Positions 38,480 to 59,962 of a DNA stretch of 64,000 nt are shown here, one piece after another. Source of the stretch: Roseobacter sp. MED193 (GTDB lineage Bacteria > Pseudomonadota > Alphaproteobacteria > Rhodobacterales > Rhodobacteraceae); NCBI RefSeq assembly GCF_000152965.1, contig NZ_CH902583.1, forward strand, positions 2,824,694-2,888,693, read 5' to 3'. Position numbers and translations under genes: made by a program. How positions within the stretch are numbered: the first letter of the stretch is position 1; each line of letters starts with the position of its first letter. The notes under the pieces are model-generated. The model ran no database searches. It was not told the origin of the DNA and saw nothing but the letters and a program-made list of their open reading frames with translations.

Positions 38480-38832
38480 TCAGGGGTGAAAAATTCGCTA
38501 GGCCTTGGCGAAGCCAAATATGAATTGAAAAGTTCACCGGCACACGGAGCGCTGGTGCACATATCCGCTGTTGAGAAAGCGCGCAGTTGTGGCGGCTTCC
38601 CCATTGCCACCCACCTCCAACCCTGCTACATCCGCCCAATCCTACTGGCCTCAGATTCGTTCTGGGGCCGTTATCTTTGTGGGAAACACATGAGCTGGGG
38701 ACCTTCGGGGCCCTAAAGACTGGCCACCTTAGTAGTCATTGTTCCATAGGGGCAGGCGGACGGGGGGCTTACACATAGCGGGTCCAAAGACAAAAACCTA
38801 GGGATCCGCACGCTAAACGGAAGACAGAAAGC
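38480..38832. promoter_or_regulatory. Gene-free stretch before rplB
   Basis: 353 bases that must supply a promoter for rplB-rpsS-rplV-rpsC-rplP, since a terminator closes the upstream unit. Two overlapping open frames here (from 38486 and 38587) have no start signal or recognisable protein and look spurious. Runs such as ggggcccta and gacggggggc occur, but I cannot define a promoter. Confidence 0.35.
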
Positions 38833-55205: not shown

Positions 55206-55652
55206 CTAGGGAGACATCAGAGCCAAAATTTGGGCCTTTACCCAAATATACCCGAAATATGCCAGCAGCGCGCAAATCCCTAGTGACGCAATCCAGCCCA
55301 TAACTCGGTAGGAGTACTTAATGCCATCGGCAAAGTGCTCGCGCACAAGATCGTGTTGGCTCACTATGTTCGCCTTTCTAGACAACACGAGACGAGGGTA
55401 AAACACGGCGATCCCATGTACAATTCCAACTGGAACGAACAGAATAGTCAGCCCGATGGCGAAGAGACCGGCTGCAACAGCTTCTGCAGTCCATTGGGAG
55501 TTCCAAGCTTCTGGAAGTTGTATCAGAACCGCTAAAATCATTAAGGTGGAGCTTAATCCCACAACCAGTGCACCAATGCGCTGCATCGGTGTTTCAGGTG
55601 CCGAATTAGCCCAGTACTTTAAAGTACGTTCGAAGATTGAAATGGGAGTCAC
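55206..55652 (-). CDS. Hypothetical small membrane protein
   Basis: 148 residues with three hydrophobic segments (about 25-45, 59-82 and 116-138) and a basic/acidic loop between the second and third. The N-terminal region MTPISIFERTLKYWANS is amphipathic. Unrecognised. Lower GC than neighbours, which suggests later acquisition. It is divergent from the aro leader region and near the end of the ribosomal block. Confidence 0.6.
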   Translation of the reverse strand: MTPISIFERTLKYWANSAPETPMQRIGALVVGLSSTLMILAVLIQLPEAWNSQWTAEAVAAGLFAIGLTILFVPVGIVHGIAVFYPRLVLSRKANIVSQHDLVREHFADGIKYSYRVMGWIASLGICALLAYFGYIWVKAQILALMSP

Positions 55653-55843
55653 CTAAAGCTGTTAGGGATGAGTTGCTCGCATGCTACCAAAAACTAATGA
55701 CTTTTGAAGCTCGAAACGAACGCAAGGGAATGGGATGGCGGGGAGTGGTCATCGCCAAGTGGTGATTAACCTCCAAATAGCGGCGGCGAATGCCGATAAC
55801 TTTCCTAATGACACGCTACCGAATCTCCGCTAGCGTCGCCGAC

Positions 55844-55924
55844 ATGACCCAAACCTATGCTGCAATCTGGTTTTATTTTTATCCGGGCCGACAGGCGGAC
55901 GGAGGGGTCTTGGCGTGCAGATGA
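55844..55924 (+). CDS. Aromatic-amino-acid leader peptide, 26 codons
   Basis: ATG at 55844 opens a 26-codon frame ending TGA at 55922-55924. Codons 8-13 encode Ile-Trp-Phe-Tyr-Phe-Tyr; Tyr also occurs at codon 5. Five consecutive aromatic codons, one for Trp and two each for Phe and Tyr, in front of DAHP synthase are exactly what an attenuator sensing all three end products needs. An in-frame ATG at 55808 would add 12 residues. No strong Shine-Dalgarno sequence is evident for either start. Too short to be found by length-filtered gene calling. Confidence 0.75.
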   Translation: MTQTYAAIWFYFYPGRQADGGVLACR

Positions 55925-55953
55925 CATAAGCGCGCAACAGCAGATACCACACC

Positions 55954-55982
55954 AACCGCCCTCAGCAGATGGCGGTTTTTTT
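55954..55982 (+). terminator. Attenuator terminator before the DAHP synthase gene
   Basis: Stem aaccgcc / ggcggtt with a ten-base loop, followed by seven Ts (55976-55982). It begins 30 bases after the leader-peptide stop and ends 47 before the gene start. GGCGG at 55894-55898 is complementary to CCGCC in the left arm and could form an alternative antiterminator when ribosomes stall at the aromatic codons. cagcagat also occurs twice (55938 and 55963). Confidence 0.85.
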
Positions 55983-56029
55983 GTAGCCGCCGCCACGCTC
56001 CGGGGCCTCCCGCAAGGAACCTTAGGACC

Positions 56030-57100
56030 ATGACCACCAAAATCGAAAACCTCCGTATCACGGATATGCAGGAACTGATCTCGCCGGATGAACTGGCGGC
56101 CAAGCTGCCCAGCAATGATCTGGCCAGCAAAACCGTGCTGGATAGCCGCGCTGATATTCAAAAGGTGCTGCGTGGCGCCGATGACCGTCTGATCGTCGTC
56201 GTCGGGCCCTGCTCGATCCACGACACCAAGGCCGCGCTGGACTACGCTGAACGGCTAAAACCCCTACGCGATGAGCTGGCGGGCGAGCTGGAAGTGGTGA
56301 TGCGGGTCTACTTCGAGAAACCCCGCACCATCAGCGGCTGGAAGGGGCTGGTCAATGACCCGCGGCTGGATGGCTCCTTCCGCATCAACGAAGGGCTGGA
56401 GATGGCGCGCAAGCTTCTCCTCGATATCAACCAAATGGGCCTGCCGGTAGGGACCGAGTTCCTGGACACAGCCGTGCCGCAATACCTTTCGGACCTGATG
56501 GCCTGGGCGGCCATTGGTGCGCGCACGACTGAGAGCCAGATCCACCGCGAGATGGCCTCGGGGCTCAGCTGCCCGGTGGGTTTCAAGAACGGCACGCGGG
56601 GGAACGTGCAGATCGCCATTGACGCGGTGCGCTCGTCAGCCCATCCGCATCATTTCATGGCCCTGGCCAAAAATGGCCGCGCGGCAATTGCGGCAACCAG
56701 CGGCAACCCCGATTGCCACCTGATCCTGCGTGGCGGTGGTGGTACCAACTACGATGCGGGTTCAGTAGATGCAGCCTGTAACAAGGCCGAACAAGACGGT
56801 ATTCGTGGCCATGTAATGATCGACGCCAGCCACGCCAACAGCGACAAAGATCCGGCCAAACAGCCGTTGGTTTTGCAGGATGTGGGTGATCAGCTGCGCG
56901 CCGGCGAACAGCGCATCACCGGGGTAATGATAGAGAGCCACCTTGTGGCGGGACGTCAGGATCTGGGCAAAGGCGAACTGACCTACGGCCAGTCGATCAC
57001 CGATGGCTGCATCGGCTGGGGCGACACCGTTACAGAACTGCGCAAATTGGCCGAGGCCGTCAAGCAGCGCCGCGCCTTGCCTGCGCAGATGGCAGGTTGA
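56030..57100 (+). CDS. aroG: 3-deoxy-7-phosphoheptulonate synthase, class I (DAHP synthase)
   Basis: 356 residues, the length of the AroF/AroG/AroH family. It condenses phosphoenolpyruvate and erythrose 4-phosphate, the first step to chorismate and Trp, Phe and Tyr. Motifs: VVGPCSIHDTKAALDYAERL, YFEKPRTISGWKGLVNDPRLDG, GARTTESQIHREMASGLSCPVGFKNGT and MIDASHANSDKDP. Metal and substrate residues (Cys in GPCS, His and Asp near the end) are in place. Which amino acid inhibits it cannot be told. An attenuator in its leader implies control by all three aromatic amino acids. Confidence 0.94.
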   Translation: MTTKIENLRITDMQELISPDELAAKLPSNDLASKTVLDSRADIQKVLRGADDRLIVVVGPCSIHDTKAALDYAERLKPLRDELAGELEVVMRVYFEKPRTISGWKGLVNDPRLDGSFRINEGLEMARKLLLDINQMGLPVGTEFLDTAVPQYLSDLMAWAAIGARTTESQIHREMASGLSCPVGFKNGTRGNVQIAIDAVRSSAHPHHFMALAKNGRAAIAATSGNPDCHLILRGGGGTNYDAGSVDAACNKAEQDGIRGHVMIDASHANSDKDPAKQPLVLQDVGDQLRAGEQRITGVMIESHLVAGRQDLGKGELTYGQSITDGCIGWGDTVTELRKLAEAVKQRRALPAQMAG

Positions 57101-57232
57101 GGGCGAATTCGACCACCGCCTCATCTGGGTGCCAGGTGAGGCGGGCGGAGCTGCGCTGGGGGCAGTCGGCAAAGCTTGCATTCGGGCGGCGGCGGCAGCA
57201 TATCCTAGGGGAGCATATTTCCGGGAGATCCC

Positions 57233-58639
57233 ATGATCCGTTCTGTCTTTTCCGCCCGCCTCGCCCTGTCTCTGGTTCTGGCGCTTGTGACCATGGGGAT
57301 GGCGCAGGCCGAAACACGTGTGCCCCAGTCGCAGGCAGAAATCTCATTGGGGTTTGCGCCGCTGGTCAAACAGGCGGCGCCGGCGGTGGTCAATATCTAC
57401 GCCAAGATCGTGCGCCAGCAGCAGCAGCGCTCACCCTTTATGAACGATCCCTTCTTTGAGGACTTTTTTCGTGGGTTCTCCAACCCACGCCCAAGGGTTG
57501 AAAGCTCTCTTGGCTCAGGGGTCATCCTCTCTGAGGATGGGGTTGTTGTCTCTAACTACCATGTGGTGGCCATGGCGACGGAAATCCGGGTCGTGACCAC
57601 GGACAAACGCGAATACGAGGCCCGTGTCGTGTTGGCAGATCAGGCCAGTGACCTGGCCATTCTTCAGCTCGAAGAGGCCAAAGGCCTGCCCTATCTGTAC
57701 CTGCGGAACAGTGACCAGGTTGAGGTGGGCGAATTGGCCCTGGCCATCGGGAACCCCTTTGGTGTCGGTCAGACGGTCAGCAGCGGTATCGTTTCGGGGC
57801 TGGCCCGCAGCGGCACCGCCTCGGGTGAGGGCTTTGGCTATTACATCCAGACTGATGCGCCGATCAATCCGGGCAATTCCGGCGGTGCACTGATTGATGT
57901 GAATGGCGATCTGATTGGTATCAACACACGGATCCTCAGCCGCTCTGGTGGTTCCAACGGCATTGGCTTTGCCATTCCCGCCAACCTGGTGCGGGAATTT
58001 GTCAAACAGGCCCACAATGGCGCGGAGGAGTTCCAGCGCCCCTGGGCCGGAATGGCAGGCCAGCCGGTGGACGCGGATCTGGCCGGGTCTTTGGGGATGG
58101 AGCTGCCCGAGGGCATGGTGATTTCCGAATTGCATCCCAAAAGCCCCTTTGCCAAGGCGGGGTTTGAGGTGGGGGATGTGATCACCGAAGTTGACGGTGA
58201 GGTGGTGAATTCCCCGTCAGAAATGGTGTTCCGCATGTCTGTGGCTGGGCTTGATGGCACCTCTATGGTGACACGCCTACGAGGCGAGACCCGTGAGACC
58301 CTGGTGGTCGAGATGTTCACAGCGCCTAATGATCCGCCTGCGCGCTCTGTTGTGATGAACGAAAACAGCGTGTTACCGGGGCTGACCGTTGGCTTGATCA
58401 ATCCTGTCGCCATTGTTCGCCTGCAACTTCCGCTCTCGGCAACTGGGGTAGCGGTTCTGGATCCTGGCCCCTATGCGGCCCGAGCAGGGATCCGCGCTGG
58501 AGACATCCTGCTTGCGATCAACGGCGCAGAGGTCATCGCCTCCGAAGATGTGCCGAACCTGCTGGAACAGGCCGGGCGCCGTTTGCGGTTTGATTTGAAC
58601 CGGCGCGGCCAACGGGTCAGCCTGCACATGCGGCGTTGA
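57233..58639 (+). CDS. Deg/HtrA family periplasmic serine protease
   Basis: 468 residues. Signal peptide about 1-26. The trypsin-like domain carries the triad His110 (SNYHVV), Asp140 (ASDLAI) and Ser216 (GNSGGAL). Two PDZ domains follow: about 250-345 (MVISELHPKSPFAKAGFEVGDVI) and about 375-460 (GVAVLDPGPYAARAGIRAGDILL). Such proteases degrade or refold misfolded envelope proteins. DegQ-like by length. rarA starts three bases after the stop. Confidence 0.95.
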   Translation: MIRSVFSARLALSLVLALVTMGMAQAETRVPQSQAEISLGFAPLVKQAAPAVVNIYAKIVRQQQQRSPFMNDPFFEDFFRGFSNPRPRVESSLGSGVILSEDGVVVSNYHVVAMATEIRVVTTDKREYEARVVLADQASDLAILQLEEAKGLPYLYLRNSDQVEVGELALAIGNPFGVGQTVSSGIVSGLARSGTASGEGFGYYIQTDAPINPGNSGGALIDVNGDLIGINTRILSRSGGSNGIGFAIPANLVREFVKQAHNGAEEFQRPWAGMAGQPVDADLAGSLGMELPEGMVISELHPKSPFAKAGFEVGDVITEVDGEVVNSPSEMVFRMSVAGLDGTSMVTRLRGETRETLVVEMFTAPNDPPARSVVMNENSVLPGLTVGLINPVAIVRLQLPLSATGVAVLDPGPYAARAGIRAGDILLAINGAEVIASEDVPNLLEQAGRRLRFDLNRRGQRVSLHMRR

Positions 58640-58642
58640 GCT

Positions 58643-59962
58643 ATGGCAGATCTGTTCGATAGCGATGCAACGCCCGAAGCCCAACCGCCCAAAGAGGTTA
58701 ACAGGCCATTGGCGGATCGTCTGCGCCCCAGATCTCTGTCAGAGGTGATTGGCCAGGCTCAGGTCCTTGGGGAGGAGGCTCCGCTGGGCGTGATGCTCTC
58801 CTCGGGGTCACTGTCCTCGTTGATTTTCTGGGGGCCGCCAGGGGTGGGGAAAACCACCATTGCGAGGTTGCTGGCGCAGGAAACAGATCTGCATTTTGTT
58901 CAGATCTCGGCTATCTTTACCGGGGTTCCAGATCTGCGAAAGGTGTTTGAAGCCGCCAAGATCCGACGCCAGAACGGGCAGGGCACCCTGTTGTTCGTGG
59001 ATGAGATCCACCGCTTCAACAAAGCGCAACAGGATGGGTTTCTGCCTTACATGGAAGATGGCACCATTTTGCTGGTTGGGGCCACCACCGAGAATCCCTC
59101 GTTTGAGCTGAACGCGGCTGTGCTGTCGCGGTCCCAGGTCCTGGTGTTGGAACGGCTGTCTCTGGTCGATTTGGAGCTTTTGACCCAGCGGGCTGAGCGG
59201 GAGTTGGGCAAAGCGCTGCCGCTGAGTGGTGAGGCGCGGGATGCGCTGCATGAAATGGCCGATGGTGACGGGCGCACGCTGCTGAACCTGATCGAACAGG
59301 TTGCGGCCTGGCGGGTAGCGACCCCCTTGGGGCGGGAGGCGCTGGCCACCCGATTGATGCGTCGGGCAGCAAAGTATGACAAATCCGGCGATGAACATTA
59401 CAACCTGATTTCCGCCCTGCATAAATCTATCCGGGGGTCTGATCCGGATGCGGCGCTGTATTGGCTGGGACGAATGCTGGAAGGCGGCGAGGATCCGCGG
59501 TTTTTGGCGCGGCGTCTGACCATGATGTCGACCGAGGATATCGGTCTGGCAGATCCACAGGCCAATACGGTCTGCTTGAATGCCTGGAACACCTATGAGC
59601 GGCTTGGCAGCCCCGAAGGCGAGCTGGCACTGGCCAATGCCGCCGTCTATCTGGCGCTGGCGCCAAAATCCAACGCGGTCTATGTAGGTATCAAGGCTGC
59701 TCGTCGTCTGGCCAAGGAGACCGGGTCCGCACCGCCACCAAAACATATCATGAATGCTCCCACCAAATTGATGGCAGAGCAGGGCTATGGAGATGGCTAT
59801 GCCTATGATCATGATGCAGAGGATGGGTTTTCAGGTCAGAATTATTTCCCAGATGGGGTGCGCCGCCCGGTTCTCTATCAGCCGGTGGAACGTGGCTTTG
59901 AGCGGGAATTGAAACGGCGTTCTGAATATTTTGCCAAGCTCCGGTTGCAGAGAAACGCATAG
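58643..59962 (+). CDS. rarA: Replication-associated recombination protein A (AAA+ ATPase)
   Basis: 439 residues. Walker A WGPPGVGKTTIARLLA, Walker B LLFVDEIHRFNKAQQD, sensor 1 GATTENPSFEL and the C-terminal MgsA-type tetramerisation region (SGDEHYNLISALHKSIRGSDPDAAL, ...). It acts at stalled replication forks with SSB. Four bases from the Deg protease gene, so probably cotranscribed. Confidence 0.94.
   Translation: MADLFDSDATPEAQPPKEVNRPLADRLRPRSLSEVIGQAQVLGEEAPLGVMLSSGSLSSLIFWGPPGVGKTTIARLLAQETDLHFVQISAIFTGVPDLRKVFEAAKIRRQNGQGTLLFVDEIHRFNKAQQDGFLPYMEDGTILLVGATTENPSFELNAAVLSRSQVLVLERLSLVDLELLTQRAERELGKALPLSGEARDALHEMADGDGRTLLNLIEQVAAWRVATPLGREALATRLMRRAAKYDKSGDEHYNLISALHKSIRGSDPDAALYWLGRMLEGGEDPRFLARRLTMMSTEDIGLADPQANTVCLNAWNTYERLGSPEGELALANAAVYLALAPKSNAVYVGIKAARRLAKETGSAPPPKHIMNAPTKLMAEQGYGDGYAYDHDAEDGFSGQNYFPDGVRRPVLYQPVERGFERELKRRSEYFAKLRLQRNA

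Follow-up and report, generated by a model that had tools for sequence, protein, structure and literature searches.

The window, the whole 64-kb stretch of DNA that was analysed, carries an AroG-type (class I) DAHP synthase gene, here called aroG, whose product matches Pfam DAHP_synth_1 (1.2e-89) and NCBIfam aroFGH (3.3e-153), and which is the sole AroG-type DAHP synthase found in that genome. The features in front of this gene are listed in Table 1. The initial annotation had described there a 26-codon ORF with the run Ile-Trp-Phe-Tyr-Phe-Tyr, a GC stem followed by seven T, and a GGCGG/CCGCC pairing that could compete with this stem, and all three were located exactly where it had placed them. 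The ORF translates as MTQTYAAIWFYFYPGRQADGGVLACR up to its stop codon; the terminator stem AACCGCC...GGCGGTT spans 55954-55977, beginning 29 nt 3' of that stop codon, and the seven T occupy 55976-55982. An alternative in-frame ATG at 55790 would give a peptide of 44 aa, but the start at 55844 is preferred because of its conservation and the position of the predicted promoter. On the other side of aroG, 132 nt past its end, lies an ORF for a Trypsin/PDZ (HtrA-type) protease (57233-58639), followed at 58643 by that of an MgsA-type AAA ATPase.

Table 1. Features of the aroG leader locus; coordinates are those of the window.
Feature	Position	Strand	Basis or remark
-35 promoter box ATGACA, predicted	55808-55813	+	GACA position conserved among alphaproteobacterial leaders
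-10 promoter box TAGCGT, predicted	55831-55836	+	base counts over 59 alphaproteobacterial leaders
Transcript start, predicted	at or beside 55844	+	-10 box position
26-codon ORF of the leader peptide, probably leaderless	55844-55924	+	ORF list, conservation, promoter position
Control codons Trp-Phe-Tyr-Phe-Tyr (W9-Y13)	55868-55882	+	sequence
Putative 1:2 protector hairpin, weak at this locus	55882-55903	+	-9.5 kcal/mol folded alone
Region 2, antiterminator 5' strand GGCGG	55894-55898	+	14 nt past the first base of the run's last Tyr codon
Intrinsic terminator, region 3, region 4 and seven T	55954-55982	+	sequence, alignment
Region 3, CCGCC	55956-55960	+	terminator 5' arm, could pair with region 2 or 4
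Region 4, GGCGG	55971-55975	+	second GGCGG, terminator 3' arm
AroG-type (class I) DAHP synthase, controlled gene	56030-57100	+	Pfam DAHP_synth_1, NCBIfam aroFGH

No Rfam 15 leader family gave a gathering-score match at 55808-55982, and the leader matched no Rfam, Pfam or NCBIfam family; the sole Rfam match in the window is an L2-Alphaproteobacteria ribosomal protein leader at 38722-38830. A generic sigma-70 scan of 55300-57800 returned no promoter, and the terminator is not listed by a consensus terminator scan, which takes loops of 3-8 nt, the perfect stem in the window enclosing 10. Short ORFs are common and the fold of the whole region is unremarkable (z = -0.66), as would be expected if a chance ORF lay before a constitutive terminator or before the terminator of an upstream gene; the nearest long upstream ORF (55206-55652), however, is on the opposite strand, and comparison with other genomes speaks strongly against such a coincidence.

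Leaders were sought upstream of AroG-type genes as ATG-initiated ORFs with at least four W, F or Y within seven codons, Markov shuffles serving as the control. Such an ORF precedes 98 of 135 genes, against 2.9 expected in the shuffles, in a sample tilted to close relatives whose fraction is not an estimate for AroG genes at large. When at least five of seven are demanded, the count is 85 of 135 against 0.24, and an earlier pass over 137 loci had given 100 against 2.8. The 135 derive from 140 numbered loci, L103, L111 and L112 having been dropped as partial or weak, and L014 and L044 left out as unanchorable in a count in which the gene start was anchored on a conserved motif. The loci came from 15 of 295 genomes of the family, 9 of 12 of the genus, 10 of 289 of the class (two of them weak), 173 of 299 of the phylum, from which the best 30 matches were taken, and a named genome collection represented by the best 80 of at least 591 matches; one species may be present in more than one source. 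By source, the leader was found at 14 of 14 family, 7 of 7 genus, 5 of 7 class, 24 of 28 phylum and 48 of 79 named-collection loci, and the fifteenth family locus, L014, which lies outside the 135, has a leader too. A plasmid search with the leader DNA gave no match.

Leaders occur in alphaproteobacteria, betaproteobacteria and some gammaproteobacteria, and one lies outside them, in an Anaerolineae MAG (L065). One and the same succession, from start codon through aromatic run and competing pairing to terminator, is seen in Rhodobacteraceae, Devosia, Bradyrhizobium and Mesorhizobium, and also in Xanthomonas relatives and Burkholderiales. Thus the comparison with relatives that had been proposed together with the initial annotation came out in favour of a conserved start, Trp/Phe/Tyr run and terminator. 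The 37 AroG-type genes without an ATG leader include those of Enterobacterales, Vibrionaceae, Methylotenera and Azoarcus; for two of the 37 the upstream DNA amounts to just 43 nt (L075) and 157 nt (L104), and a third (L125) has a GTG-start leader that the ATG test missed. In Candidatus Burkholderia humilis (L033) the aromatic run KFYFYF is kept within an ORF extended to 48 codons, and the attenuator looks as though it were decaying.

A terminator with a perfect stem was found by script after 96 of 100 leader loci; at L002 and at the Leisingera loci L016 and L017 interrupted stems were recognised by eye, and at L065, which was left out of the alignments, none is obvious. Dereplication at a similarity cut of 0.88 reduced 99 leader regions to 54, in which the antiterminator core, GGCGG in the leader and CCGCC in the terminator (regions 2 and 3, hence 2:3), is paired in 54, 54, 54, 51 and 54 of 54 at its successive positions, two leaders (L013 and L137) having the compensatory swap AGCGG/CCGCT. 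In a separate alignment of an 8-pair antiterminator, 81.8% of the cells are paired, a share that does not exceed 55.9% when the pairing is shifted by as many as 3 columns; 16 cells are double-changed against 7.2 in shuffles, 2 within the core and 14 outside it; at each of the three pairs flanking the core 17-33 of the 54 are unpaired. For the terminator 93.9% of the cells are paired, with 32 double-changed against 10.2. These comparisons with shuffles can be inflated by relatedness, and two of the five measures, the number of pairs with a double change and the number of pair types, are not beyond shuffles for the antiterminator (27 and 135 of 500) nor clearly above them for the terminator. The window's 2:3 core of 5 bp is no better than that obtained by resampling synonymous codons (129 of 200 as good), and 10 or fewer of 200 resamplings are as good in just 25 of 96 loci, which makes codon choice by itself a weak argument for 2:3. 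Even so, the frequency of the ORF, these compensatory changes, the preferred spacing described below and the persistence of the arrangement among 54 distinct regions out of 99 largely refute a chance ORF, which we regard as scarcely credible.

A covariance model built from the leaders, R1, gave nine strong matches in 149 genomes of the family (E of 7e-10 or better), all directly before AroG-type genes and none at any other gene; eight of the nine loci had gone into building the model and are no independent proof. Weak matches in the family fell at 12 places (E from 7e-4 to 0.01), and among the seven inspected an aromatic ORF was present at L210 alone. This locus, in another Rhodobacteraceae genome (G034:C1:752515-752616, minus strand), has a 19-codon ORF ending in ARWYFTAYT, followed by a terminator and an acetyltransferase-like gene below the NCBIfam cut-offs; perhaps this is an aromatic leader unrelated to the others. 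Among 200 genomes of the phylum, R1 matched in 26. New finds were the GTG-start leader of L125 and, in three genomes belonging to another family, leaders like MQTQRAYFFYFWFSPPAAER ahead of DAHP synthase paralogues that had not been used in building R1. Of L233 and L236-L238, all leaders that the ATG scan missed or did not cover, one starts with GTG and three precede an additional class I DAHP synthase in one other family. Two weak matches fell on Phe-rich leaders, before pheS and pheA. On inspection L240 and L242-L244 proved not to be leaders.

The beginning of the transcript can be approached through the promoter-like boxes. In 55 of 59 alphaproteobacterial leaders, a set that was not dereplicated and in four of which the start was moved to an in-frame ATG lying 6 or 9 nt upstream, GACA begins 33-35 nt before the leader ATG; 36 of 59 have T at -13, as many have A at -12, and 57 have C at -1. 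A Shine-Dalgarno-like 4-mer precedes one of these 59 leaders and none of 41 others. From these boxes, transcription in alphaproteobacteria would start at the ATG of the leader itself, which probably makes the mRNA leaderless. The apparent -10 box of the Burkholderia leaders is found about 40 nt upstream, and the leaderless reading is therefore confined to alphaproteobacteria and perhaps Xanthomonas relatives. The trpL transcript of Sinorhizobium meliloti is likewise reported to begin at its own AUG, and its RNA and peptide (rnTrpL and peTrpL) to act in trans (PMC10117765, PMC7298713), so that the terminated leader RNA or the peptide studied here might additionally do the same; those parts of the peptide that lie outside the aromatic run and region 2 are variable, and we hold such an action to be improbable.

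Measured from the first base of the final aromatic codon, with only codons beginning over 8 nt ahead of region 2 considered, region 2 starts at a distance of 14 nt in 33 of the 54 dereplicated leaders and of 11-20 nt in all. From the ribosomal footprint, the leading edge of a ribosome stalled at that codon would end at about the start of region 2. On partial transcripts ending after region 3, 2:3 has a mean predicted probability of 0.38 in 54 leaders without a ribosome, and of 0.89 in 53 leaders when a ribosome occupies the final aromatic codon; in 32 of 54 there is at least one aromatic codon at which a stalled ribosome adds more than 0.2 to this probability. The window is, by this modelling, a poor example of ribosome-dependent switching: its 2:3 is predicted at 0.98 without a ribosome and at 0.95 or above at every aromatic stall position, and its 1:2 protector does not outcompete 2:3. 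Once region 4 is present the terminator is predicted to win at equilibrium even with the ribosome stalled (0.78 against 0.22 in the window, and likewise in most of the 54), so antitermination would have to be kinetic. The leader stop codon starts at a distance of 28 nt downstream from the first base of region 2, and given the same footprint a terminating ribosome would therefore not cover region 2.

With this anatomy, conservation and geometry and some compensatory changes observed, the locus is very probably a ribosome-mediated transcription attenuator before aroG that would sense a shortage of any of Trp, Phe and Tyr. RNA polymerase would initiate at or beside the leader ATG, and a ribosome would load onto the bare 5' AUG. 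Should charged tRNA run short for any one of Trp, Phe and Tyr, this ribosome would stall in W-F-Y-F-Y with its leading edge just before GGCGG, leaving region 2 free to pair with region 3; the terminator would then not form and aroG would be transcribed. If all three amino acids are in ample supply, the ribosome would proceed, regions 3 and 4 would pair, and transcription would halt before aroG. The leaderless start, the stalling, the direction of this response and an equal weight for Trp, Phe and Tyr are inferred from the sequence.

That all three would be sensed is read from codon content. W, F and Y are all present somewhere in 81 of the 98 leader ORFs and lie together within the dense run in 79, while a Trp codon is missing from 17, including those of Oxalobacteraceae, Cupriavidus and four alphaproteobacteria. 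Since 52 of the 54 dereplicated leaders have Tyr or Phe as their last aromatic codon, it is possible, though on balance doubtful, that the attenuator effectively senses Phe and/or Tyr, the Trp codon being passive or minor. The aroR leader of Corynebacterium, reported to respond to limitation of Phe and not of Tyr (PMC11802643), points the same way; the presence of all three residues in the dense run of 79 leaders argues against such a reading, as does the window, in which every aromatic stall position would favour 2:3, although the absence of a ribosome does so equally. Lineages differ in how many W, F and Y their leaders have and in which order, and the RNA spacing is held in most, an arrangement better suited to codon-dependent stalling than to arrest by the nascent peptide itself upon a free aromatic ligand. 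Certain leader peptides, TnaC being one, do arrest ribosomes upon tryptophan, but arrest peptides usually require fixed residues, and this mechanism is very unlikely here.

The controlled gene is not alone in its function. The window genome additionally encodes a class II DAHP synthase, which is also present in 47 of 54 AroG genomes tested, among them all 43 alphaproteobacterial ones, and in 38 of 41 of a family sample, while the AroG-type gene is patchy in the family (15 of 295 sampled genomes). No recurring aromatic leader was found before class II genes in 59 upstream regions (L141-L199; some class II genes found did not become loci), two of which (L163 and L191) reach four aromatics in seven codons, the other 57 remaining below. 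Because class II co-occurs without such a leader, the attenuator is tied to a patchy second isozyme, and we propose that its output would be a second, inducible DAHP synthase alongside the class II enzyme. The initial annotation had one leader sensing three end products at the first step of the pathway; the conserved order of the elements supports this, but the enzyme is not the sole entry to the pathway. A relation between Trp-less leaders and the presence of class II was considered and found unsupported, since the genomes of both Trp-less (G360, G583, G463 and G333) and Trp-containing alphaproteobacterial leaders carry class II.

It appears reasonably likely that these leaders form an unnamed attenuator family of alpha-, beta- and some gammaproteobacteria, leaderless in alphaproteobacteria, which would sense any of Trp, Phe and Tyr and switch on a second, dispensable DAHP synthase beside a class II enzyme not under such attenuation. 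If so, a single leader reading three end products at the first step of a branched pathway would be a compact logic gate and a natural multi-aromatic biosensor, and would help to explain the division of labour in bacteria with two DAHP synthases; the Trp-less lineages offer a ready comparison for which codons count.

Among the Phe leaders are those named pheL and pheM in enterobacteria. They too combine a Phe-rich leader with a terminator, and R1 matched weakly before pheA and pheS, but their control codons are Phe, Trp is absent, and they precede other genes. Proteobacterial attenuators have reportedly been surveyed by Vitreschak in 2004. No named proteobacterial AroG leader was found in the open-access literature, an earlier mention elsewhere being possible, and none before aroG or another DAHP synthase gene appears in the main-text passages searched of PMC5688073 and PMC4035088 (on Burkholderia RNAs), PMC2965389, PMC11109978, PMC1262725 and PMC10117765. 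S. meliloti trpL (rnTrpL) shares the leaderless leader ORF, the attenuator and the alphaproteobacterial host, but is a Trp leader before trpE(G) (PMC10117765, PMC7298713). uORFC-13-1 of Acholeplasma aroF is likewise a predicted uORF with a terminator before a DAHP synthase gene, but is described with at least one Phe codon, from 24 sequences of Acholeplasma and environmental origin (PMC8632094). The aroR leader of aroF in C. glutamicum (Neshat 2014, via PMC11802643 and PMC4046766) likewise has an aromatic leader peptide with attenuation ahead of DAHP synthase; its trait of Phe/Tyr codons in that position is found at the window locus as well, but it belongs to an actinobacterium, reads Phe-Tyr-Phe, and is presented in the accessible text of these two papers with no mention of Trp. 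The trpL, pheL, pheST and aroR leaders are each described in PMC11802643 as following one amino acid. Attenuators of this kind are well known, while the three-amino-acid make-up, the leaderless start, the breadth of distribution and the tie to a second isozyme appear to be new.
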